Assembly (NCBI GenBank): GCA_027034005.1
Contig: JALVJU010000287.1
Location: 1 to 36,365 of the forward strand
Source: Marinilabiliaceae bacterium
GTDB taxonomy: Bacteria > Bacteroidota > Bacteroidia > Bacteroidales > Marinilabiliaceae
Direction: 5' to 3'
DNA length: 36,365 bases
A program made the translations under genes and the position numbers. Shown here in pieces: positions 7,382 to 21,924 of the stretch; the stretch's first letter is position 1, and every line of letters starts with the position of its first letter. The notes under the pieces are model-generated. The model searched no databases, had not been told where the DNA came from, and saw nothing but the letters and a program-made list of their open reading frames with translations.

Positions 7382-8107
7382 ATGAGTGACAGGAATATTT
7401 TCAAAGAGTTGTTTTCGCTGAAAGGGAAAACAGGGATAGTTACCGGTGCAGCGAACGACCTGGGGCTGGAGATGAGCCGGACCCTTGCCATTGCAGGAGC
7501 TAAGGTGTTTTGCCATTAGCCGGTCGGACAAGGTGAAAGGTGAAACTGATAAACCGTTACCGGAAACCGTGGAACACATTGCTGTCGATGTTACGGATTA
7601 CGACCGGATTGGAAAAATTATTGACCGAATCGGGAAAGATCATGGCATCGATTTTCTGGTGAACAATGCCGGCATAACCAACCGCACCCCGGCAGAGGAG
7701 TAGGACATGAAAGATTTTGATAAGATAGTAAAGATCAATGTTGATGCTGTGTTCAACCTTTGCAAAGCCTGTTGCCCATGCATGAAGAAAGCACAGGGCG
7801 GCGGCAGTATCGTGTCCATATCATCAATGGCAGCACACCTTGGCTTTCCCGAAGTGGTGCGGTACAGTGCAACCAAATCGGCAATAACGGGCATGACTAG
7901 TGGGCTTACCAAAGAAGTGGGTCATTGAAAATATTCATGTCAACTCAGTTGCTCCCGGATGGTTCCTCTAGGAAATACTGTAGCTGATACTGGACGATAA
8001 GCTTAGAAATAAGATACTGAACCGTATGCCTACACACCGTTCGGATGGCCTAGGGAAGCTGGCAACCATGAACCCTTGTATTTACCTGCCGAATCCTATA
8101 TTACCGA
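7382..8107 (+). pseudogene. Decayed short-chain dehydrogenase/reductase (gluconate 5-dehydrogenase-like)
   Basis: SDR motifs spread over frames: GIVTGAANDLGLEMSRTLAIAGAKV, DFLVNNAGITNRT, GGSIVSISSMAAHLGFPEVVRYSATKSAI, ENIHVNSVAPGWF. Frameshift at T-run 7508-7511, in-frame TAG 7701-7703, frameshift near 7925, further stops near 7970. Confidence 0.85.
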
Positions 8108-8154
8108 AAATTACATTAAAAAGAATGATAAAACACAATTATTTTCAATAATAA

Positions 8155-8185
8155 TTTGACACTATCAAATATCATTTTATATTTG
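8155..8185 (+). promoter_or_regulatory. Predicted Bacteroidetes-type promoter of the GntR-led operon
   Basis: -33-like TTTG (8155-8158), 19-nt spacer, -7 TATATTTG (8178-8185) matching TAnnTTTG. Confidence 0.6.
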
Positions 8186-8187
8186 TC

Positions 8188-8205
8188 CTACATGTAAACA
8201 TGTAG
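8188..8205. promoter_or_regulatory. Candidate GntR-family operator (perfect palindrome)
   Basis: ctacatgt-aa-acatgtag, perfect 8-2-8 inverted repeat immediately after the predicted -7 element and about 80 bp upstream of the GntR gene. Confidence 0.6.
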
Positions 8206-8283
8206 ACATACAGACACGTGGATATCTAAATAAAGTATTCCGCTTTTTGAAAGGACTCTTTAATAAATTAGAATTATTAAACT

Positions 8284-9000
8284 ATGGAAGGCTTAAACAA
8301 AAAGGAATTTTCACCAATAAAACGACCAAAAAAGTTAAGCTATCAAATAGAAGAACAGATATTGAATGCCATTAGGCAAAAAGTTTTTGGTGTTGGTGAT
8401 CTGTTGCCTGCCGAAAATAAATTAACAGAAATATTTAATGTTAGTAGAGGTGTAATTCGCGAGGCACTGCAAATGTTATCAACTAAAGGATTAATCGAAA
8501 TTCAGAAAGGTAAAGGTGCAATTGTTCTAAATCCCTCTATTGAAGCAATACTCGATCCATTTTCTTCATTTATAGATTATAAATGTGGGAACAAAGGTCT
8601 TATTTGTTCTTTAGGGGCCAGGATAAACATTGAACCACAAGTTGCTGCTTTAGCTGCCCAGAACAGAACAAATAGAGATATTGAAAAATTGAAGGGATTT
8701 TATGAGAATATGGAAAAGAATAAAAAAGATATAGAAACTTTGCATTTTTATGATATTGAATTCCATAATGCAATCTCAATAGCTAGTGGTAATCCTTTGT
8801 TTGCTATAATTTTAGAACCTATTTATCATTTTCAGCAAACTTATTATAAAGAAGCCCTAAATATTTTCCATCAAGATCATGAGACTTTTGATTATCATTT
8901 AAAGATTCTTGATGCCATAAAGGAAAAAGACAGCAAATCTGCAGCTCAGTTTATGAAAGAACACTTATCAATTGCCTTAAAATACATAGAAAGTCTATAA
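8284..9000 (+). CDS. GntR/FadR-family transcriptional regulator
   Basis: Winged HTH: LSYQIEEQILNAIRQKVFGVGDLLPAENKLTEIFNVSRGVIREALQMLSTKGLIEIQKGKGAIV; FCD-like helical C-terminus. Confidence 0.92.
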   Translation: MEGLNKKEFSPIKRPKKLSYQIEEQILNAIRQKVFGVGDLLPAENKLTEIFNVSRGVIREALQMLSTKGLIEIQKGKGAIVLNPSIEAILDPFSSFIDYKCGNKGLICSLGARINIEPQVAALAAQNRTNRDIEKLKGFYENMEKNKKDIETLHFYDIEFHNAISIASGNPLFAIILEPIYHFQQTYYKEALNIFHQDHETFDYHLKILDAIKEKDSKSAAQFMKEHLSIALKYIESL

Positions 9001-9063: not shown

Positions 9064-9852
9064 ATGAGAGCGAGCAAAGTTTTAAAAAAATTACGAAAAG
9101 GGGAGGTAGTGAGCTGTTTCAATGTTCATTTGGATGCCCAGGTGTCTGATATTGCAGGGTTAGCAGGCTATGACTGCCTTTGGATAGACAGGGAACATCT
9201 GGCTCAGGATTGGAGCATTCTTCAATCACATATTTGGGCAGCTAAAGCTCATGATACGGATGTCATGGTAAGGGTATCACGTGGTAGTTACAGCGATTAT
9301 ATAAAACCACTTGAAATGGACGCATCAGGAATAATGGTACCACATATCATGGGGCTGGAAGATGCCAGGAATGTAGTTAAAATGACACGTTTTCACCCAA
9401 TTGGCCGTCGACCATTAGATGGTGGAAATGCAGATGGGGATTATGCATCTATGAACTATGCCGAATACCTACCACAAGCAAACAGAGAACGGTTTGTAAT
9501 TGTACAAATTGAAGATCCTGAACCATTAGATGAGCTTGATGCAATCGCTGCATTAGACGGGATTGACATGCTTTTTTTTGGCCCTGCCGATTTTAGTCAT
9601 TCAATTGGTGCACCGGGCGAATGGGGCCACCCAAGATTATTAGAAGCACGAGAATTAGTGGCCAAGGTTGCCAAAAAACATGGCAAATATGCCGGGATCC
9701 CGGCTAATCTTGAGAACATGGAAGAACTTGTTGCCATGGGTTACAGATTTATTACTCTTGGCGCTGATGTGGTAGCCGTTGGAGCATATTGCAAAAATTA
9801 TATCAATAAATTTTCTGAAACATTTAATAATTTTAAAGATAAAACAGTATGA
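9064..9852 (+). CDS. HpcH/HpaI aldolase/citrate lyase family protein
   Basis: DCLWIDREH, VMVRVSRG, VIVQIEDPEPL, LFFGPADFSHSIG retain the HpaI catalytic residues. Confidence 0.9.
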   Translation: MRASKVLKKLRKGEVVSCFNVHLDAQVSDIAGLAGYDCLWIDREHLAQDWSILQSHIWAAKAHDTDVMVRVSRGSYSDYIKPLEMDASGIMVPHIMGLEDARNVVKMTRFHPIGRRPLDGGNADGDYASMNYAEYLPQANRERFVIVQIEDPEPLDELDAIAALDGIDMLFFGPADFSHSIGAPGEWGHPRLLEARELVAKVAKKHGKYAGIPANLENMEELVAMGYRFITLGADVVAVGAYCKNYINKFSETFNNFKDKTV

Positions 9853-11219
9853 GCAAAGATTGGTGGAAAGAGTCCGCAAATGGAATCCCAAATATTATTA
9901 CAGATTTACCCGGCCCAAAATCAATTAAAATGCATGCTAATGCAAGCAAGTATATACGTGGGCTCTCATCACAGGTAAAGCAGTTCCCCGTAGCTTTCGA
10001 AAAAGCCAAAGGGATTACCATGACAGATGTTGACGGAAACAAATACCTTGACTTTTCATCCGGGATATATGTAACATCCCTGGGGCACATTCATCCTAAG
10101 ATTTCAGAAGCCATCTCAAAATGGGCGAATAAGTTAATGAATTGCCATGATTTCACAACACCTGTTAAGGAGAAATTGCTGGAGAAAATGTCTGATGTGC
10201 TTCCCGGAAGCCTCAATTCTATTCAGTTGTACAGTGATGGAAGTTCTGCAGTGGAGGCAGGAATCAGGGCTGCAAGGGCTATTGGAAATCATCACGAATT
10301 TATCTCCTGCTTTCGGGATTTTCATGGTAAAAGCATGGCGGCCGTAAGCATGGCACAAATGGTTCGAGGAGATGTTTTCAGTTATGGCCCTACACGTGCA
10401 CCCGGTTTTTATATGGTACCGCGCCCTGATCCCTATCGCCCATTATTTAAAAAAGATGATGGAAGCATTGATACAGATGCATATATTAGCTTTTATAAAG
10501 AATTCATCCGCGAAAGCACTGTTGGAAACGTTGCAGCTTTTGTTTTAGAACCTGCACAAGGTTGGGGGGGGTCGATCTTTCCCCCGGACGACTATTTTCC
10601 AAAATTAAAAAAATTATGCGATGAACATGGGATACTTCTCTTTGCTGACGAAGTACTTACCGGCATGGGACGTACCGGGGAATGGTTGTGTATGAACCAT
10701 TGGGATGTAACGCCAGATATCGTCACCTTGGGCAAATCCTTCGGAAATGGATTTCCTGTTACCGCCATGGTTGTTAAAGATGAATATGCCGAAGCTTTAG
10801 ATAAAATTTCTGCTTCTTCAAGTTATGGTGGTAATCCAATGGCATGTGCTGCCGCCTTGGCTTCTATTGAGGTAATTGAAGAGGAACAGATATTGGAGAA
10901 TGTACAATCAGTTGGGGCATATTTTATTAAAAGGATGAACAAAATGAAAGAAGATCATCCTATTATTGGTGACGTGAAAGGGAAAGGGTTTTTACTCGGA
11001 ATGGAATTGGTGAAAGATAAAACTACTAAAGAACCTTTTGATGAAGCAGGAAAACTGGTTTATCAAAAAGCATTCAGCAAAGGCCTTGCTTGGATTCCGG
11101 CAGGGCATATTCTCAGGATGTCCCCACCACTTATCATGGATGAGAAATATGCGGATTTGGGTTTGGATATTATTGAAGAGTCTATAGCAGAGGTTGAAAA
11201 AGAGTTTGGATATAAATAA
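9849..11219 (+). CDS. Class III (PLP-dependent) aminotransferase
   Basis: ATGA overlap with upstream gene; LYSDGSSAVEAGIRAAR, LLFADEVLTGMGRTG, VTLGKSFGNGFPVTAMV (PLP lysine), SSYGGNPMACAAALA. Confidence 0.92.
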   Translation: MSKDWWKESANGIPNIITDLPGPKSIKMHANASKYIRGLSSQVKQFPVAFEKAKGITMTDVDGNKYLDFSSGIYVTSLGHIHPKISEAISKWANKLMNCHDFTTPVKEKLLEKMSDVLPGSLNSIQLYSDGSSAVEAGIRAARAIGNHHEFISCFRDFHGKSMAAVSMAQMVRGDVFSYGPTRAPGFYMVPRPDPYRPLFKKDDGSIDTDAYISFYKEFIRESTVGNVAAFVLEPAQGWGGSIFPPDDYFPKLKKLCDEHGILLFADEVLTGMGRTGEWLCMNHWDVTPDIVTLGKSFGNGFPVTAMVVKDEYAEALDKISASSSYGGNPMACAAALASIEVIEEEQILENVQSVGAYFIKRMNKMKEDHPIIGDVKGKGFLLGMELVKDKTTKEPFDEAGKLVYQKAFSKGLAWIPAGHILRMSPPLIMDEKYADLGLDIIEESIAEVEKEFGYK

Positions 11220-11236
11220 TTGCAAATAATAAACAC

Positions 11237-12067
11237 ATGAAACAATATAGATTAAACCGATTATTTAATAAAAAATCGAAACGCTGCCTCAATGTAGCAA
11301 TAGATCACGGTTTTTTTAATGAATTTGGGTTTTTAAAAAGTATTGAAAATATTGAACAAGCCATAAATACAGTAATAGAAGCAGCTCCGGATGCTATTCA
11401 GCTCACTGTGGGCCAAACAGATTATTTACAATCCAAAATAGGAAAAGACAAACCAACTTTGGTTATGAGGACCGATGTTGCCAATGTTTATGGTCAGCAA
11501 CTGCCCGATTATTTGTTTAGCAGGATGATCGAGTACCCGGTTGAACAAGCGCTAAACAAAGACGCAGCCTGTGTTGTTGTCAACCTATTTAGGATACCAG
11601 GTCAACCGGAAGTATCAGATCAATGCATCCAAAATATATTGAAAATAAAACCTCTTTGTGATCGTTTTTCAATGCCCTTAATGATAGAGCCTCTTGTTTT
11701 TCAATCAAACGAAAAAGCAGGTGGTTATATGGTTGATGGAGACCTTAATAAGATCTTACCATTAGTCCGTCAGGCAGTTGAACTAGGAGCTGATATAATT
11801 AAAGCTGACCCAACTGATAATATAGAAGATTATCACAAGGTCATAGAAATTTCCGGGAAAGTTCCTGTACTGGTCCGGGGCGGAGGAAAAGTTTCGGACA
11901 AGGAAATCCTTACCCGCACCAAAGCAATTATTGACCAAGGGGCTGCCGGTATAGTGTATGGAAGAAATATTATCCAACACAAAAACCCAAAAGCAATTAC
12001 CAAATCACTTATGAGCATTGTGCATGATAATCTTAACGTAGAACAAGCTCTTGAATTTTTGGCATAA
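11237..12067 (+). CDS. Class I aldolase, DeoC/FbaB/LacD (DhnA-type) family
   Basis: CLNVAIDHGFF, GADIIKADPTDN (Schiff-base Lys), VPVLVRGGGKVSDKE, GAAGIVYGRNIIQHKNP. Confidence 0.85.
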   Translation: MKQYRLNRLFNKKSKRCLNVAIDHGFFNEFGFLKSIENIEQAINTVIEAAPDAIQLTVGQTDYLQSKIGKDKPTLVMRTDVANVYGQQLPDYLFSRMIEYPVEQALNKDAACVVVNLFRIPGQPEVSDQCIQNILKIKPLCDRFSMPLMIEPLVFQSNEKAGGYMVDGDLNKILPLVRQAVELGADIIKADPTDNIEDYHKVIEISGKVPVLVRGGGKVSDKEILTRTKAIIDQGAAGIVYGRNIIQHKNPKAITKSLMSIVHDNLNVEQALEFLA

Positions 12068-12181
12068 ACCGAACTAAAAATTAACACTTGGCTTAAATAC
12101 TGAAAAATAGTTAATATAGCCACTATACATCTTTATCGATTAAAGTATATGAATGAATGAATGAATAAGTAATTTATAAAA

Positions 12182-13477
12182 TTGTCAAAAAACATAGCCA
12201 TAATAATAGATATCGGTACAAGTTACATTAAGTGTTACTGTATTAATTCTGATCATAAAATCTTGACTTCTCATCAAAAAAAATTCCCAATGATAGAAGT
12301 TCATGATAGTTATGAGCTTGATTTCCAACTATTTCTAAGAACTACAAAAGGCCTTATTTTCAAATGCTTACAAGATATAAACATCAAAGGATCAGGCATT
12401 GAGGCATTATTGATAACAAGTCAGGCTAACACTTTTGTACCTGTCAATTATGATTTCGAACCATTATGCAATGGTATTGTTTGGTTGGATGAAAGAGCAG
12501 TAAAGGAAGCAGGCTATCTTAATTGTGAATTACCCGATTATTCAAAATATTCGGGCTTTAAACAAATACACCCCAGTCTGTATGCAGCAAAATTATTATG
12601 GCTAAAACGAAATGAAGCTTCAATTTATAAAAAAGCTGCACATTTCCCGCTAATAAATGAATACATAGTTTATAAACTCACTGGCCATTACTATTCTGAC
12701 ACTACAAGTTTTGGGATGAGTGGCATGTACGATCACATTGAAAATGAGCCTATTCTCAAGTTGCTACAAATACTCGAACTTACCGGCAATCATTTCCCAA
12801 TGATTGAAGATCCCGCAAAAAGGGGCGAACTGATTTCAATCGATTTTATGAAAGAATTGGAGCTTGACCATAGATTCCCAGTCTATTTATGCGGAAATGA
12901 CCAAGGTGCTTCAGCTATTGGTGCGGGATTAAGAGACCCCGGTGATATCAATATAAATTTTGGCACTGCCATGGTTTTGTACACTATTACCCAAAAGCTT
13001 AGCAATAAGTTGAACAATCAACAAATCGCAGGAAAACATCCTGTGGGGGATTACTATTTTTTGTTGAATTATGAAGCTGATTTTGGAATTCAAATCCGAT
13101 GGCTAAAAGATTATTTTTTCAGAGAAGGAACATATGATCAGTTGTTTAAAACATACCTTGATTATCCCTCAACAGCTGAAAAAGTCCCATTTTCCAAAGC
13201 AGACGACCTGAATTTGATCAGTTCTTCAGAATCGCCACAATATTGTGCAGGTATCATAAAATATTATTTGAACAGATTAAAAAGACATTTATCTCAAATC
13301 AAAAAATCGATTAAGATAAATAACGTATTTATTTCCGGCGGCATGGCGCAATCAACAGTATGGCTTGAGATACTTAACAACACTCTAAATATGCCAATTA
13401 CGGAAAATCGCGAGAAACATGCAGGTATTTTGGGTGCGTATGGAATATATCAACAATTCAAAATTAAAAAAGATTAA
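12182..13477 (+). CDS. FGGY-family carbohydrate kinase (TTG start)
   Basis: IAIIIDIGTSYIKCYCI; GIVWLDERA; YLCGNDQGASAIGAGLRDPGDININFGTA; NNVFISGGMAQSTVWLEILNN; in-frame TAA just upstream at 12170. Confidence 0.85.
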   Translation: MSKNIAIIIDIGTSYIKCYCINSDHKILTSHQKKFPMIEVHDSYELDFQLFLRTTKGLIFKCLQDINIKGSGIEALLITSQANTFVPVNYDFEPLCNGIVWLDERAVKEAGYLNCELPDYSKYSGFKQIHPSLYAAKLLWLKRNEASIYKKAAHFPLINEYIVYKLTGHYYSDTTSFGMSGMYDHIENEPILKLLQILELTGNHFPMIEDPAKRGELISIDFMKELELDHRFPVYLCGNDQGASAIGAGLRDPGDININFGTAMVLYTITQKLSNKLNNQQIAGKHPVGDYYFLLNYEADFGIQIRWLKDYFFREGTYDQLFKTYLDYPSTAEKVPFSKADDLNLISSSESPQYCAGIIKYYLNRLKRHLSQIKKSIKINNVFISGGMAQSTVWLEILNNTLNMPITENREKHAGILGAYGIYQQFKIKKD

Positions 13478-13478
13478 C

Positions 13479-14414
13479 ATGGGCAAATTTACTTACGAAC
13501 CTTCAAAACATGTGCCTTTCCGGGATAAGAAAATCCTGGAAAGAGTACGTAAAATTGAACGAAAAGATATTGAAAAGCATAAAAACCCTGATTTTAGGAT
13601 TAAGGTAATTCCCGATGCTGATATGAGTATTATTATGCTTTTTGATATTTTTCACCGTATAAAAACTGCCTCAGATAATAATGAAGCTATTGTTTTGATT
13701 ATGCCAAATCCCTGGCCTCATTACAGAATGTTGGCACACATGCTAAATAAGTTTCGTGTTGATTGCAGTAAATTATATACTTTCAATATGGATGAATATG
13801 CCGACCAGGATGGAAATATAGCCCCGGAAAATTGGAGATACGGTTTTGGCTATGCATTTAAGAACTACTTCTTTTATAATTTAGACAAAGACCTCAGGCC
13901 TCCTGAAAATCAAATACACACATTTACTAATAAAAACATAAATGATTATGGTAAGATGATAACCGACCTCGGTGAGGCTGACATGGTTTATAGCGGCCCC
14001 GGCTGGACTGGTCATCTGGCATTTATTGAACCTGATGCGCCGGAATTTAAAGCCAATTCAATGGATGAATGGATGGAGATGGAATCCCGAATCGTTACTC
14101 TTAGTCCGTTTACTCTTGCACAAAACTCTTTACATGGCAGCTTTGGAATGAGTGGCGATTTGGCAATGGTGCCTCCTAAAGCAGCCACTATTGGCCCGGC
14201 ACAGGTAGTACGAGCAAAAAACAGAATGCAATTTTGTGGAATTAGTGTGCATGGAACAACTACATCATGGCAAAGACTGATCACCCGACTTGTTTTACAT
14301 GGCGACCCAACACCTCTAGTCCCGGAATCAGTACATCAATTATTACGAACAGACTCCTATGTGTCGGAAACCATTGCAATGAATATCGAACCAGATTTTG
14401 AAAAAGGATATTAA
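13479..14414 (+). CDS. Glucosamine-6-phosphate isomerase/deaminase-like (NagB superfamily), divergent
   Basis: Start moved to ATG 13479 (MGKFTYEPSKHVPF), 2 nt after the kinase stop; LYTFNMDEYADQDG; SGPGWTGHLAFIEPDAPEF corresponds to NagB GxGxDGHIAFNEP. Confidence 0.8.
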   Translation: MGKFTYEPSKHVPFRDKKILERVRKIERKDIEKHKNPDFRIKVIPDADMSIIMLFDIFHRIKTASDNNEAIVLIMPNPWPHYRMLAHMLNKFRVDCSKLYTFNMDEYADQDGNIAPENWRYGFGYAFKNYFFYNLDKDLRPPENQIHTFTNKNINDYGKMITDLGEADMVYSGPGWTGHLAFIEPDAPEFKANSMDEWMEMESRIVTLSPFTLAQNSLHGSFGMSGDLAMVPPKAATIGPAQVVRAKNRMQFCGISVHGTTTSWQRLITRLVLHGDPTPLVPESVHQLLRTDSYVSETIAMNIEPDFEKGY

Positions 14415-15427
14415 TGAACAGGGCACCATCAAAAAACATATTACGTAAAAAAAAGGCTGTCGTCGATGCGCATACCCATGTTGGTATTTCGCCCAGGTTT
14501 TATAGTCAATATGGCTATCCTTATGCTCTTTCATTCGAAGACTTGAATTTAAGAATGAAAGTTCTTGGAATTGATTACTCCGTTGTTTTTCCGTTTGTCG
14601 ACTCCCGATATTATGAGTATGATAATGATTCAGCAGAAATTACAACAACCACAAAACATTGTAATTTTCCTTATGAACTTGAAAACAAGAATTTACTAAA
14701 TGAGATATACAATATATTTCCAAAATATAGCCATAAAGCACTACCTTTTCTCATGTTCGACCCTTCACGCGAAACAGAAAAGCAGGCTGATTTTATGGAA
14801 GGTTTAATGGAGAAATATCCTGTTTTCGGCTTAAAAACAGCTTCTACCTACATACAGTCTTTTATCTCAGATTTGGAAATCAAAGGCAAACCAATACTTG
14901 ATTTAGTAAGAAAGAAAGAGCTCCCTATCACTTTTCACTCCTCGGTACACCCTAAAGATCCCTGGGCCGGAGTAAATGATATTTTAACTTTTGCAAAACA
15001 CAACCCTGATATTAGGGTCTGTATCGCCCACTCTGCCCGCTTTTTAAAACCGGCGTTGCAAGAAGCAGATAAATTAGAAAATTGTTTTGTTGACCTTTCT
15101 GCTTTTATCATCCATTGTAGGCTGGCAGTCCAAAACTCAAAAAACATAGCTGTTCCGGGACTGCGGTTTGATGCGGATTATGAAGACCCTCTATCCGTGA
15201 TGTTTAAATTAGCCAAAACATATCCGGACACAATAATATGGGGAAGCGATACACCTTTCAACTATTGGATTCAAAAATATCATACTGCCGATGGTAAATT
15301 AATAGAAGACCGCTTAGATTGTCGTTATGACGAAGAATCTCAATTGTTAAAGGGATTATCTTCGGAAATAAGAACCAAGATTACCTATACAAACACAATG
15401 CGATTTCTTTTTGGAAGTAAAATCTGA
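14414..15427 (+). CDS. Amidohydrolase family (TIM-barrel metal-dependent hydrolase)
   Basis: VVDAHTHVGIS, LPITFHSSVHP, VCIAHSARF, IIWGSDTPFNYW; abuts the preceding gene (TAATG). Confidence 0.82.
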   Translation: MNRAPSKNILRKKKAVVDAHTHVGISPRFYSQYGYPYALSFEDLNLRMKVLGIDYSVVFPFVDSRYYEYDNDSAEITTTTKHCNFPYELENKNLLNEIYNIFPKYSHKALPFLMFDPSRETEKQADFMEGLMEKYPVFGLKTASTYIQSFISDLEIKGKPILDLVRKKELPITFHSSVHPKDPWAGVNDILTFAKHNPDIRVCIAHSARFLKPALQEADKLENCFVDLSAFIIHCRLAVQNSKNIAVPGLRFDADYEDPLSVMFKLAKTYPDTIIWGSDTPFNYWIQKYHTADGKLIEDRLDCRYDEESQLLKGLSSEIRTKITYTNTMRFLFGSKI

Positions 15428-15433
15428 AGAAAA

Positions 15434-16741
15434 ATGAAAACACTTTTAGTTGGATCAGCCATTATCGATGTAACGCCTAAAAAACCAATGTTTCTGCATG
15501 GTTATCCCCATGTAGAGAGAGTTAGTGAAGGAGTTCACGACCCTCTGTATGCCTCTGCATTAATTATAGACAATGGAGAGACTCAGATCGGGTTTTGCGC
15601 AGTAGATGTCATATTTATTTCAAAGGACATAACAATGCGTGTCAGGAAACAAGTTCAGGAAGCAACCGGGATAAAAGGTGAGAACCTGATGATTTCCGCC
15701 ACTCACACTCATTCCGGCCCGGTAACATTTAGCGATATTTTTTATGACCCGGTTGTGCCAAAGGCAGATGGTGAATATATTACTTTTTTGGTAAATAAGA
15801 TCGCGACAGTTTACATTGAGGCTTTTCGCAACAAAAAAGCATCTAAAATTGCAATCACTACGGCAGATGCTACCGGAGTTGGAGGCAATAGGCGAAGCAT
15901 AAATGACGTAATTGATCCAGAAGTCCCTATTATTGTTTTAAAAGATATGGCTACGGATAAAATATTCGCCTTATCTACGATATATTGCATGCATCCTACT
16001 GTTTTGCACGAAGATTCCAAACTATATTCAGCCGATTTTCCAGGATATACGAGAACATATATCAAAGAAAAATTAGGTAAAGATATCGTTTTATTATACC
16101 ACACCGGGCCTTCCGGCAATCAATCTCCGAGACATTTTATCAATTCAAATACATTTGAAGAAGCAGAGCGATTGGGTTTTAAATTGGGCAGACTAATTAC
16201 TAAAAGTATCTTAAGATTAAATGAATCGGATTATCAAAATTGGATCTCCATTAACATAAAACAATTCAAAATAAACCTGCCTCAAAAAAAATTTATGACA
16301 GTTGATGAGGCAGAAAAAAAGGTGATTTTTGTAAAAAACAAGTTAACAAAAATGCAACTTGATAAGGAACCCGCCAAAGAGATCAGAACTGTTGAATGTG
16401 ACTGGTTTGGCGCATTGGAGAACAAACAACTATCAAAAATGCATGAAAATGGAGAGCTTAAAAAAGTATATGAATCTGTATTACCGGCCGAAATAAATAT
16501 AATTGGGCTTGGAGATGTTCAGTTTGTTTTTTTACCGGGTGAGTTGTTTGTAGAATATTCATTGGAGATAAAAAAACATTCAGCAAAAAGAACATTCGTC
16601 AATAGTTTGTCCAATGGGGTACTTGCCGGATACCTTGTTACACCAGAGGCTGAAAAAGAAGGTGGTTATGAAGCTTCTAACAGCATATTCTCAGCTAAAG
16701 CAGGTCAAGTCTTAATAGAGGAACTCAGTACTAAAATATAA
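15434..16741 (+). CDS. Neutral/alkaline non-lysosomal ceramidase-like protein (no signal peptide)
   Basis: GSAIIDVTPKKPMFLHGY, MISATHTHSGP, CMHPTVLHEDSKLYSADFPGY, HTGPSGNQSPRHF, VFLPGELFVEY, GYLVTPEAEKEGGYEA. Confidence 0.8.
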   Translation: MKTLLVGSAIIDVTPKKPMFLHGYPHVERVSEGVHDPLYASALIIDNGETQIGFCAVDVIFISKDITMRVRKQVQEATGIKGENLMISATHTHSGPVTFSDIFYDPVVPKADGEYITFLVNKIATVYIEAFRNKKASKIAITTADATGVGGNRRSINDVIDPEVPIIVLKDMATDKIFALSTIYCMHPTVLHEDSKLYSADFPGYTRTYIKEKLGKDIVLLYHTGPSGNQSPRHFINSNTFEEAERLGFKLGRLITKSILRLNESDYQNWISINIKQFKINLPQKKFMTVDEAEKKVIFVKNKLTKMQLDKEPAKEIRTVECDWFGALENKQLSKMHENGELKKVYESVLPAEINIIGLGDVQFVFLPGELFVEYSLEIKKHSAKRTFVNSLSNGVLAGYLVTPEAEKEGGYEASNSIFSAKAGQVLIEELSTKI

Positions 16742-16748
16742 AATAACC

Positions 16749-18242
16749 ATGGAAAAAATATCATTAACAATTATTGACTGGATAATAATTATTGCCTATG
16801 GTATAGGGATGTTACTTGTAGGTTTTTATTTTTCACGTCAAAATAAAAACGCTGAAGATTATTTACTTGGAGGTCGAGGAATGAAATCATGGAAAGTAGG
16901 GATATCTCTTTTTGCTACCATGTTTAGTGCTATAACTTATCTTTCCTTGCCCGGCGAAATGGTAAAACATGGGCCAATGATATTCATAATGATTTTTGCT
17001 TTACCATTTATATACTATGTCGTTGCTTATTTTTTCATCCCTTTTATAATGAGACTCAACGTAAGTAGTGCTTATGAATTACTGGAAAAAAGGGTTGGAA
17101 AGCAAAATCGCGTAATTGCCTCTGTTTATTTTTTAACAATGCGTTTTCTATGGATGAGCGTGATTATTTATATGGTTTCAGAAAAGATAATTATCCCGAT
17201 AATGGGATGGTCTGAACAAACTGCATTGATGGTTGGTATTGTAATGGGAATTATTACCATTATTTATACCTCATCAGGGGGATTACGAAGCGTGGTACTT
17301 ACTGATGTTGTTCAATCCTTTGTTTTATTTGGGGGGACTATACTTGCAATCACTCTGATTGTTAAGGACCTAGGCAGCCCGGCAGATATCATCCCTAAAG
17401 AATGGCCGAAAAACTGGTCAGGCTGGGTGTTTTTTGATACCGATGTCAGAGTGAGTTTCTTAACTGCATTTATTTCAACATTTGGATGGTATGTATGTAC
17501 GGCAGGTTCTGACCAGATGGCCATCCAACGATATCTTGCTACTAAGGATGTTAAAGCGGCAAAAAGGATGTATCTGAGCTCTGTCTTGGTTAATATTTTT
17601 GTTTATATATTACTTCTCATTCTGGGACTAGGACTTTTTGCCTATGTAAAAATCCATCCGGAGATATTAAGTGGTGTATCCATTGAAGAAGGGGCGGATT
17701 CCCTGTTTCCAAAATTTATTGCTATCGGCCTTCCAGCAGGGTTCTCAGGGCTTGTTTTGGCCGGCCTACTTGCAGCGGCTATGTCCAGCCTTTCGTCAGG
17801 TATAAATTCTTCTTCATTATCAATTGTTGACGATTTTATCCTTCATTCAGGAGCCAAATTAATGAGCGACAAGAAAAAGATCAAATTGGCCCAAGGCATC
17901 TCAGTAATTATAGGGGTGGTAATTGTTTTTGTGAGTTTGCTAATTAGTAATATTCAAGGAAACCTTTTAGAAATTACCTTTAAAACCAGTAATTTATTCG
18001 TTGCCCCGCTTTTTGTACCATTCTTTATGGCAATGTTTATAAAAAAGGCATCCCCAAATGCAACTTTTATTGGCACACTACTTAGTGGTATCTCTGCCAT
18101 ATTAGTTAGTTTCTCAAATGAATTATTTAATGTTAATATATCATTTTTATGGATTATCCCTATCTCGTTTATAGTTGGAATTTCTTTCAGCATTGCTTTA
18201 AGTTATCTTCCTTTTAGATATGGAAAAGTTATTTCTGATTAA
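16749..18242 (+). CDS. Sodium:solute symporter (SSS family)
   Basis: Polytopic; AEDYLLGGRGMKSWKVGISLFATMFSAITYLSLPGE; SDQMAIQRYLATKDVKAAKR; SSLSSGINSSSLSIVDDF. Confidence 0.92.
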   Translation: MEKISLTIIDWIIIIAYGIGMLLVGFYFSRQNKNAEDYLLGGRGMKSWKVGISLFATMFSAITYLSLPGEMVKHGPMIFIMIFALPFIYYVVAYFFIPFIMRLNVSSAYELLEKRVGKQNRVIASVYFLTMRFLWMSVIIYMVSEKIIIPIMGWSEQTALMVGIVMGIITIIYTSSGGLRSVVLTDVVQSFVLFGGTILAITLIVKDLGSPADIIPKEWPKNWSGWVFFDTDVRVSFLTAFISTFGWYVCTAGSDQMAIQRYLATKDVKAAKRMYLSSVLVNIFVYILLLILGLGLFAYVKIHPEILSGVSIEEGADSLFPKFIAIGLPAGFSGLVLAGLLAAAMSSLSSGINSSSLSIVDDFILHSGAKLMSDKKKIKLAQGISVIIGVVIVFVSLLISNIQGNLLEITFKTSNLFVAPLFVPFFMAMFIKKASPNATFIGTLLSGISAILVSFSNELFNVNISFLWIIPISFIVGISFSIALSYLPFRYGKVISD

Positions 18243-18254
18243 TTAAAAATTCAA

Positions 18255-19211
18255 ATGAACAAAAGACCCCTTGGAAAAACCGGTATAGAAGTCTCAGAAA
18301 TTGCATTTGGTGGCGTAGAAATAGGAATGCCTTATGGTATAGGTATAAATAATAAATCCGATATGCTCCCTCGGTCGCAGGCAATTTCATTACTGCAATC
18401 TGCTTTGGACAGGGGCATTAATTTTTTTGATACTGCACGAATGTATGGTGAGAGCGAATCTATCATAGGACAAGCATTTAAAAAGATCAGGGATCAGGTA
18501 GTTATCAGTACCAAATGTCGACATATTAAAGACCCAAAAGGATATCTGCCTGATTCTAATCGTATTAAGAAGATCATAGAAGGATCTGTAATAAAAAGCC
18601 TTAACGAATTAAAGACAGGATACATAGATGTATATATGTTACATCAGGCAGATACAGAGATTCTTGAAAACGAAACAGTTAGCAAAACATTTTTAGATTT
18701 GAAACGGAGAGGGACAATCCGGGCAACCGGTGTTTCCACCTATTCGGTAGAAGAATCAAAAACCGCAATTGAAAGCGGTATATGGGATGTGATTCAACTA
18801 CCATTTAATTTGATGGACCAGTCTCAGGAAACTGTTTTTGCATCAGCAGCAAAACAGGGAGTTGGTATAATGGTGCGTTCAGTACTATTCAAAGGATTAT
18901 TAAGTAGTAAAGGCAGGAAACTGCACCAAAAGCTGAATACTGTAGAGCAGCACATCAGACAATATGACGAGCTAATCAACAGTTCTGCCCCTGACCTTAC
19001 ATCTGTTGCAATTAAATTTGCCCTTTCTTTTAGGCAAATTTCGTCCGTATTGGTGGGGATAGACAAAATGGATTATTTACAAAAAGCTGTTGATATAGCA
19101 AATGGATATTACTTCAGCAAAGAAATATTAAAACGTGCCAAAAAACTCCAATACCCTGATCTGCAATTCCTTGATCTACCTAAATGGGACAGGATGGGTT
19201 GGTTAACCTAA
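18255..19211 (+). CDS. Aldo/keto reductase
   Basis: RPLGKTGIEVSEIAFGG; INFFDTARMYGESE; VVISTKCRHI; YIDVYMLHQAD; catalytic D/Y/K/H present. Confidence 0.92.
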   Translation: MNKRPLGKTGIEVSEIAFGGVEIGMPYGIGINNKSDMLPRSQAISLLQSALDRGINFFDTARMYGESESIIGQAFKKIRDQVVISTKCRHIKDPKGYLPDSNRIKKIIEGSVIKSLNELKTGYIDVYMLHQADTEILENETVSKTFLDLKRRGTIRATGVSTYSVEESKTAIESGIWDVIQLPFNLMDQSQETVFASAAKQGVGIMVRSVLFKGLLSSKGRKLHQKLNTVEQHIRQYDELINSSAPDLTSVAIKFALSFRQISSVLVGIDKMDYLQKAVDIANGYYFSKEILKRAKKLQYPDLQFLDLPKWDRMGWLT

Positions 19212-19260
19212 GCTGCAAGATTCACGTATTTGATTTGATGCATGTATGATAATAAACTAT

Positions 19261-20147
19261 ATGAAAATAATCAAAAACCGCTTTAGAAAGTTTTTTTGTC
19301 AAGGTTTAGTTTTGATAATCAGTGCATCTAAAATCTTTTCTTGTAAAAATGAAACTATAAGTTCATCACAAGAATTTATAGGTTTGAAAAAAATGGTGAT
19401 GTAATGTCAGTGATGCAAAATAAAAATACGGGGAAATTTGTTGCCTGTTCCAAAGGTTGGGCTAACGCAAGGCCATCACACCGACATTTTGTACGTGTAG
19501 AAAATGACGATTTTATTCATTGGCCTGAGCCAGAGGTAGCGATTAGGCATGCTAATGATTCTATTGGCCCAAAATCTTATGGAATAAATACTTCACATTA
19601 TGGAAGCAGTTACATAGTGTTGCTGCATTCATATAAAAAAACCGGTAATGAAACCATTGATATCCAATTGACCATTAACCATGAAAATAAAAACTGGATA
19701 CATGTTGCCAATAAGGAGACTTTTATTCCAGTTGGTGCAGTAGGTACCTTGAACAATGGGATGCTCTTTACCGCCCCATCAATTAATCATAGTGACAAAA
19801 GGCAGAACTATTATGGTGCATGGGATGGCCAACATGACATAAAAGAGCATAAAAGCGGAATTGATTTGGCTACTTTGCGAAATAATGGTTTTGTTTCGCT
19901 CTATGCAACCGTCTGGGAACATATCACAACATATCCCATAAAAGACACCAGTGGATATTTGCTCGTAAATATTAATGCGACAGGAGGTCCAATGCCTGCC
20001 GAACTGTTAAATGAAAATGGCAAGCCAATTAGTGAGTATACATTAAATGAATCTGTTCCTATTCATTCCGATGAAATTTCAGTCCCAGTTCAATGGGAAA
20101 ACCATATTAAACTACCTGAACAGGCATATAGCATTCGTTTTCATTAG
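19261..20147 (+). pseudogene. Remnant of a secreted GH32-like (five-bladed propeller) glycosyl hydrolase: signal peptide plus C-terminal portion
   Basis: MKIIKNRFRKFFCQGLVLIISASKIFSCKN... stops after 48 codons in one frame; homologous-looking FEKNGDVMSVMQNKNTGKFVACSKG...DDFIHWPEPE...GMLFTAPSINHSDKRQNYYGAWDG...GIDLATLRNNGFVSLYATV...LLVNINATGG continues in another frame from about 19383. Confidence 0.65.
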
Positions 20148-20202
20148 AAGAATGCTTCATTATACTATTTTTATACAGATCACAATGCTAAACGGCGTAA
20201 TA

Positions 20203-21126
20203 ATGATTAAAATTGGAATTCTAGGATTAAACGAAGGGAATGGCCACCCTTATTCATGGGCTGCCATTATCAACGGAGATTACAACGAAAAAGAGATGGA
20301 GAAGTGTGGCTATGCAGGAATACCCCTCTACCTGAAAGCAAACAAGAATACATTGGGCATTGACGGTGCAGCAGTCACACATATTTGGACCCAGGACAGA
20401 AAACTATCCGAACATATTGCCAGGGCTTCGGGCATTACACATGTTGTAGAAAAAGCCGAAGAAATGATCGATCAGGTTGATGCTGTAATACTGGCTAGAG
20501 ATGATCCCGAAAACCACGTTGCTATGGCAAAACCATTTTTGGACGCAGGAGTCCCCATTTTCATAGACAAGCCTTTGGCCATGTCATATGCCGACCTGAA
20601 TTATTTCAAATCACAACAACAAAAAGGAAAGTTCATCATGTCATGCTCCTCAATGCGCTATTCGTCTGAATGCCTATCTTTAAAAACAGAATTAAACACG
20701 ATAGGGAAAATAGAGCTGGCTACTGTTGTTGGCAGCAAAGACTGGACAAAATACGGGGTTCACATGCTGGAAGCCTTATTTGCACTATTGGATGATCCAA
20801 AAGCTGTAAATGTGCAAAATATTGGAAAACCTGGAAAAGAGATCGTCAGTGTTGTTTTTGACAATGAACTGCAAGTTACAGTACATATCTATATGGATAT
20901 ATCAGCTACTTTTCAAATATCCCTTTATGGACAAAAGGGATGGCAAACAATTGACATCAAAAACTCTTACGTCATGTTTAAAGAAAACCTGAATGAGTTT
21001 GTCCGTTCCGTCCGGGAGGGCAAACCAAGGATCCCGTTTGAAAAAACAGAAAATATTATTAGAACCCTCATTGGAGCCAAAGAAAGCCTTGGGCAAAATG
21101 GTAAAATAATTGACCTTACAAATTAA
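20203..21126 (+). CDS. Gfo/Idh/MocA family oxidoreductase
   Basis: Start moved to ATG 20203 (MIKIGILGLNEGNGHPYSW); VDAVILARDDPENHVAMAKPFLDAGVPIFIDKPLAMSYADL; DWTKYGVHMLEALFALLDD. Confidence 0.85.
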   Translation: MIKIGILGLNEGNGHPYSWAAIINGDYNEKEMEKCGYAGIPLYLKANKNTLGIDGAAVTHIWTQDRKLSEHIARASGITHVVEKAEEMIDQVDAVILARDDPENHVAMAKPFLDAGVPIFIDKPLAMSYADLNYFKSQQQKGKFIMSCSSMRYSSECLSLKTELNTIGKIELATVVGSKDWTKYGVHMLEALFALLDDPKAVNVQNIGKPGKEIVSVVFDNELQVTVHIYMDISATFQISLYGQKGWQTIDIKNSYVMFKENLNEFVRSVREGKPRIPFEKTENIIRTLIGAKESLGQNGKIIDLTN

Positions 21127-21147
21127 GAAGTAAAAAATAGACAAATA

Positions 21148-21924
21148 ATGAATGTTAAAGATTTATTAAGTTTAAAAGGTAAAATTGCTCTTGTTACCGG
21201 TGGCGCTGGAAATTATGGCAAGTGTATTGTAGAAGGTCTTGCAGAAGCTGATGCCACTGTGATTACTGCTTCCAGAAATATAGAAAATAGTAAAAAGTTT
21301 GCGCAAAAATGTATAGCCAATGGATTAACTGTACATGTTATGCAAGTTGATCAGGCAGACCATGATTCTGTTATGTCATTAAAACAACAAATAATAAAAA
21401 AATTTGGAAGACTTGATGTTTTTGTCAACAATGCCGTTAGTCGCCCTATGTCCGGCTATAACGACCCTATTGAACTTTTTGAAGAATCTATGCGTGTAAA
21501 TGCAACCGGAATGTTCGATATCCTTCGTGAAATGACTGGTCTGATTACATTAGCCGGTGGAGGCAGTATTATCAACATAAGTTCTATGATGGGCGTTTTT
21601 GGCCCCGACCTGACAAATTATGAAGGTACAGATATGGGGGACATGCCCCCTGATTATTTCTTTCACAGGGGAGGTTTGATAAATCTTACCCGCTATTTAG
21701 CAAGAATGTTGGCAAATAAAAACATACGTGTCAATTGCATCAGTCCGGGAGGTCTTTTCAATAATCAACCTAAACGGTTTGTTGAAAATTATTGTAAAAA
21801 AGTTCCCGTTGGTCGAATGGCAAATAATGATGACATAAAGGGCCTAGTGGTATTTTTAGCTTCAAAGGCATCTGCTTATGTCAATGGTGAAAATATTTTA
21901 ATGGACGGTGGAATGCATGCATAA
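21148..21924 (+). CDS. Short-chain dehydrogenase/reductase (SDR)
   Basis: KIALVTGGAGNYGKCIVEGLAEADATVITASRN; DVFVNNAVSRP; IINISSMMG; NIRVNCISPGG; AYVNGENILMDGGM. Confidence 0.9.
   Translation: MNVKDLLSLKGKIALVTGGAGNYGKCIVEGLAEADATVITASRNIENSKKFAQKCIANGLTVHVMQVDQADHDSVMSLKQQIIKKFGRLDVFVNNAVSRPMSGYNDPIELFEESMRVNATGMFDILREMTGLITLAGGGSIINISSMMGVFGPDLTNYEGTDMGDMPPDYFFHRGGLINLTRYLARMLANKNIRVNCISPGGLFNNQPKRFVENYCKKVPVGRMANNDDIKGLVVFLASKASAYVNGENILMDGGMHA

Follow-up and report, generated by a model that had tools for sequence, protein, structure and literature searches.

We found that positions 8181-8203 of a 36,365-nucleotide stretch of DNA from an uncultured Marinilabiliaceae bacterium (the whole stretch is called the window below) quite likely serve a GntR repressor of the FadR subfamily as its autoregulatory operator. 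The array reads ATTTGT-CCT-ACATGT-AA-ACATGT. In the mechanism that we propose, a GntR dimer would bind the convergent pair ATTTGT-CCT-ACATGT, while the third half-site, an ACATGT located 8 bp beyond the second, would aid binding, possibly by bringing a second dimer. GntR on this segment would cover the -7 element together with the predicted start site, and RNA polymerase would be blocked at the promoter of gntR and of the catabolic operon until GntR is released by a pathway metabolite that docks in its FCD domain. Such coverage should result in autorepression, as in other regulators of the FadR type. The sequences themselves show the promoter-like elements, an operator-like sequence with conserved spacing at orthologous promoters, the family of the regulator and the genes of the operon; from these we infer operator function, GntR binding, a repressing and not an activating role, the position of the start site, the effector and the effector-driven release. 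The presence of a GntR-type operator at the predicted start site is well supported by the comparison of promoters described below.

Positions of the promoter elements, the candidate operator and the genes downstream of it in the window.
Feature	Position	Strand	Basis
-33 promoter element TTTG	8155..8158	+	sequence; Bacteroidota primary sigma consensus
-7 promoter element TATATTTG	8178..8185	+	19 nt after the -33 element; sequence and pattern search
Candidate operator half-site 1, ATTTGT	8181..8186	+	overlaps the -7 element; aligned Arenibacter promoters
Inverted repeat CTACATGT-AA-ACATGTAG (= CTACATGTAAACATGTAG)	8188..8205	.	sequence; shuffle test
Candidate operator half-site 2, ACATGT (left-arm core of the repeat)	8190..8195	+	TGT-CCT-ACA core with half-site 1
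Candidate operator half-site 3, ACATGT (right-arm core of the repeat)	8198..8203	+	offset +17 scan; composite pattern
Two weak units of 8-bp pitch, ACATAC (8206-8211) and ACACGT (8214-8219)	8206..8219	+	doubtful
gntR, FadR-subfamily regulator with GntR and FCD domains, 238 aa, predicted autorepressor	8284..9000	+	Pfam
Co-directed genes, presumed operon	9064..21924	+	ORFs, family matches, Arenibacter relatives

An earlier note on this DNA had described a promoter followed, 3 nt past its -7 element, by a perfect 18-bp palindrome, and had proposed that the GntR protein encoded by the first gene downstream represses itself from there. Both promoter elements are indeed present with the 19-nt spacing, in line with the TTTG at -33 and TAnnTTTG at -7 reported for the primary sigma factor of Bacteroidota (PMC7366714), and the first downstream gene does encode a GntR protein with an FCD domain. 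Taken by itself, the promoter pattern carries no significance, with two copies in the window against 1.55 expected by chance; only its position makes it plausible. The repeat is real as well, but the gap to the -7 element is 2 nt, and the palindrome is not a strict one. The arms CTACATGT and ACATGTAG match perfectly over 8 bp each, while the central AA is asymmetric, so that 16 of the 18 positions of CTACATGTAAACATGTAG are symmetric and two differ from the reverse strand; the arms form an inverted repeat around a 2-nt spacer. In the 198-bp region before gntR, 8-bp arms separated by at most 3 nt arose in 4.8% of dinucleotide shuffles, and arms that in addition hold at least three G/C each in 0.3%. 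The repeat occurs once in the 3.9-Mb draft genome at up to two mismatches. Both arms contain ACATGT; the segment can thus equally be read as a direct repeat (ACATGTAA ACATGTAG), a reading that the earlier note does not mention. As this hexamer reads the same on both strands, any pair of copies mimics an inverted repeat.

Conservation at orthologous promoters points to a different register. Arenibacter latericius and Arenibacter catalasegens carry the same operon genes, headed by a GntR protein 48-50% identical to that of the window, and both of their gntR promoters contain ACTTGT-N3-ACAAGT. Together with the promoters of a SusC gene and of a putative hydrolase in A. latericius, four Arenibacter promoters carry ACTTGT-N3-ACAAGY, all with the N3 spacing, and these boxes begin 5-6 nt past a -7-like element. 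In the window, ATTTGT-CCT-ACATGT (8181-8195) matches AYTTGTNCTACAWGT exactly, and an unguided DNA alignment placed the window's TTGTCCTACATGT in the same columns as the Arenibacter boxes. When one mismatch to AYTTGTNCTACAWGT was allowed, contig C32 of A. latericius gave three sites, which precede gntR, SusC and a 342-aa ORF. The latter has a signal-like N terminus and no Pfam match; we call it a putative hydrolase from reading and neighbors only. A second exact match to AYTTGTNCTACAWGT in the window's genome (C518) falls within an RNase E/G-like coding frame and was taken as chance.

The operator is thereby found at both orthologous gntR promoters, two orthologues in total, and at two further promoters of A. 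latericius. What is kept upstream of the orthologous genes is AYTTGT-N3-ACAWGY-N2-AYRNGT, not the 18-bp palindrome itself. Thus, the proposal of autoregulation gains from the comparison, since a GntR-type operator lies beside the predicted start of both Arenibacter gntR genes, while the palindrome as it was drawn is not supported. Judged from these alignments, the register first noticed is probably off by 8-9 bp, with an array that begins some 8 bases before the palindrome does, and the palindrome probably consists of half-sites 2 and 3 of a three-half-site array. Its striking appearance would then be a by-product of spaced self-complementary half-sites. The argument for the register draws on five sites from three genomes, two of which belong to one genus.

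Distant relatives of the regulator (31-36% identity) showed the same spacing. TGT-N3-ACA was present within 150 bp upstream in 9 of 27 of them (0.76 expected; 0 of 500 shuffles), whereas TGT-N2-ACA, the spacing of the palindrome, was not enriched upstream of the same 27. The top unguided word in their upstream regions, GTC-N2-ACA, is matched by both the window and A. catalasegens. In other classes of the phylum, FadR-type operators (e.g., AGATGTCAGACATCT and AGTTGTCTGACAACT) were also seen less than about 50 nt from the start codons of gntR-like genes in L025, L032, L034 and L010, whose regulators are distant and NanR-like.

These data bear directly on the idea that the palindrome itself is the dimer site, with ACATGT-AA-ACATGT and its 2-nt spacer as the functional operator and the upstream ATTTGT merely part of the -7 element. 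The rarity of such G/C-containing arms among shuffles speaks for it, as does the occurrence of GT-N2-AC operators in some FadR-subfamily groups (PMC4494728). The position relative to the promoter favors it too: the core box of the window runs into the -7 element, a shift of about 10 nt toward it as compared to Arenibacter, which counts against the array, while the 4-nt gap between the -7 element and the palindrome's ACATGT is nearer to the 5-6 nt of Arenibacter. Moreover, part of the match of half-site 1 could be coincidence, because its TTTG is common to the -7 consensus. This displacement keeps the palindrome alive as a rival. However, N3 was found in all four Arenibacter sites and is the spacing enriched in the distant relatives, and an array in which the self-complementary ACATGT fills two half-sites yields the palindrome at no cost. 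We therefore consider it unlikely that the palindrome is the dimer site.

The three-half-site array is further indicated by a scan of the aligned promoters. Scored against AYWTGT across five promoters, the hexamer at offset +17 reached 26 of 30, the highest of 129 offsets (next best 19; mean 13.0, SD 3.0), and the Arenibacter sites alone reached 20 of 24, a level seen in 0 of 2000 shuffles. The orientation of this half-site is ambiguous (a left-half reading scores 26, a right-half reading 25), its counterpart in A. catalasegens is weak (ATAAAT), and none was seen at this offset in the distant relatives. The composite pattern TTGTNNNACAWGYNNAYRNGT occurred once in the window's genome, three times in A. 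latericius and not at all in the other four genomes, each time at an array promoter, and its reversed control gave one match across all six genomes; as the pattern was built from these very sites, only its rarity elsewhere is new information.

By the same token, a chance repeat or the operator of another regulator, with no role for this GntR, appears very improbable. Short inverted repeats do arise in AT-rich DNA, in 10.8% of shuffles when spacers of up to 10 nt are allowed, but in the genomes that we searched the composite element was confined to the promoters described above, the orthologous ones among them.

The A. latericius sites suggest a small predicted regulon. On its contig C32 (L071), GntR-type operators at 10891-10905 and 15803-15817 precede the SusC gene and the 342-aa putative secreted hydrolase, and a GH32 enzyme and a SASA-family esterase sit between the two. 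This context suggests a glycan-use locus of which the operon is a part. The array in the window also provides, for a FadR-type regulator of Bacteroidota, a testable operator with a small set of predicted targets (the gntR operon, SusC and the putative hydrolase in A. latericius) and would tie an uncharacterized catabolic operon to one switch.

The presumed operon encodes an HpcH/HpaI aldolase, a class III aminotransferase, a DeoC/LacD-type aldolase, an FGGY kinase, a NagB-like protein and an amidohydrolase, followed by a ceramidase-like protein, a sodium:solute symporter, an aldo/keto reductase, an unnamed ORF (19404-20147), a GFO/IDH oxidoreductase and an SDR. The proteins are 49-88% identical to those of the two Arenibacter loci. 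The aminotransferase (9849-11219) and the NagB-like protein (13419-14414) are 85-88% identical (85-86% for the class III aminotransferase), as compared to 48-50% for gntR and 60% for hpaI; such uneven divergence possibly reflects horizontal transfer plus strong constraint. The unnamed ORF has no Pfam match; it is probably a real gene, because a stretch 49% identical to it lies in A. catalasegens (L066, 6984-7733) at that very place, between the symporter and the aldo/keto reductase. On the upstream side, the gntR promoter is adjoined by the remnant of a short-chain dehydrogenase (7400-8110, + strand) with frameshifts and stop codons, matched by adh_short in two pieces; the assembly is a draft, and these lesions may be assembly errors.

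We detected no orthologue at E ≤ 1e-40 among 60 relatives from the window's own genus, family and order, no orthologue of the class III aminotransferase when 294 further genomes from the class were searched at E ≤ 1e-130, and none in the Arenibacter genus or in a sample of its family besides the two already mentioned. Plasmid records yielded only generic FadR-type regulators, less than 60% identical. With no further orthologue at the 48-50% level among the sampled genomes, the operon is patchy.

The regulator is a FadR-subfamily protein, with PF00392 (GntR, 1.5e-18) and PF07729 (FCD, 6e-23) both past the Pfam cutoffs. The recognition-helix arginines R55 and R59 are present in all relatives examined. 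When aligned by eye, Asn45 occupies the position of the Arg that reads G in TGGT-reading regulators (PMC4494728), which is in line with the T/A found at this place in the predicted TTGT/ATGT half-sites.

The nearest solved relative of the protein is E. coli NanR (6on4, E 4.6e-29), and NanR is also its best NCBIfam model (NF003011), with 148.9 bits against a curated cutoff of 260. E. coli NanR binds its operator, three direct GGTATA repeats, cooperatively (PMC8012715), and an exact match confirmed GGTATA-ACA-GGTATA-AA-GGTATA in the E. coli nanR-nanA gap. The window array resembles this operator in its number of half-sites, three, in their 9 + 8 bp pitch and in lying downstream of where the polymerase would bind. 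It might extend into a tandem NanR-like series from 8181 to 8219, in which four or five units follow one another every 8-9 bp and are occupied cooperatively by several dimers. In the window, period 8 stands out (P 0.007, one of eight periods tested), and 8206-8221 matches two copies of ACATGTAG at 12 of 16 positions, a level reached by 0.13% of the window's intergenic 16-mers. On the other hand, the Arenibacter promoters have no conserved unit at offset +25, past the third half-site, and the core pair is inverted, not direct. The homology with NanR begins at residue 15 here and at residue 29 in NanR, so that about 14 residues are missing from the N terminus as compared to NanR, in which a 32-residue N-terminal extension drives cooperative assembly. 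We thus regard the longer tandem array as quite unlikely. GGTATA is absent from the site, where the half-sites are of the ACWTGT type, and the operon has no recognized nan genes. Since the NanR score, the repeat and the N terminus all failed to fit, we read the protein as a FadR-type repressor with NanR-like spacing, not as a NanR.

As in other FadR-subfamily operators, convergent TGT/ACA half-sites with a 3-nt spacer lie at the start of the operon of a GntR + FCD regulator. The consensus of the subfamily is TNGTNNNACNA (Rigali 2002 as cited in PMC2230225), also given as TKGT-N3-ACMA (PMC4494728). The window's TTGT-CCT-ACAT (8183-8193) is a convergent GT-N3-AC and differs from the full consensus by a T for A at the last position, whereas all four Arenibacter sites fit. 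It thus departs from the usual form in being asymmetric (TTGT/ACAT), one base off TNGTNNNACNA, and in having a spaced third half-site. The FadR-subfamily GT-N2-AC groups (GntR, UxuR, PrpR and others; PMC4494728) have a 2-nt spacing like that of the palindrome, but the orthologues of the window gntR use 3 nt. The host adds a further difference, as the survey in PMC4494728, the main published FadR-type operator set, includes no Bacteroidetes FadR-type regulators. The same survey describes a weaker extra half-site 7-12 nt from the operator center in 13 FadR-subfamily groups; here it recurs at one fixed offset, three times within a single genome and again in a genus distant from it. It is conceivable, albeit rather unlikely, that the operators of this GntR clade, with at least three half-sites, are intermediates that link the symmetric palindrome of FadR to the tandem array of NanR, holding at least two adjacent dimers at a fixed pitch of 9 + 8 bp with a protein that lacks the full NanR N-terminal extension. 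If true, this would illustrate a route by which palindromic operators can evolve into tandem ones. GntR-family palindromes flanked by additional half-sites have already been published (PMC4494728), and in this respect the site in the window is an ordinary further case of a known type of switch.
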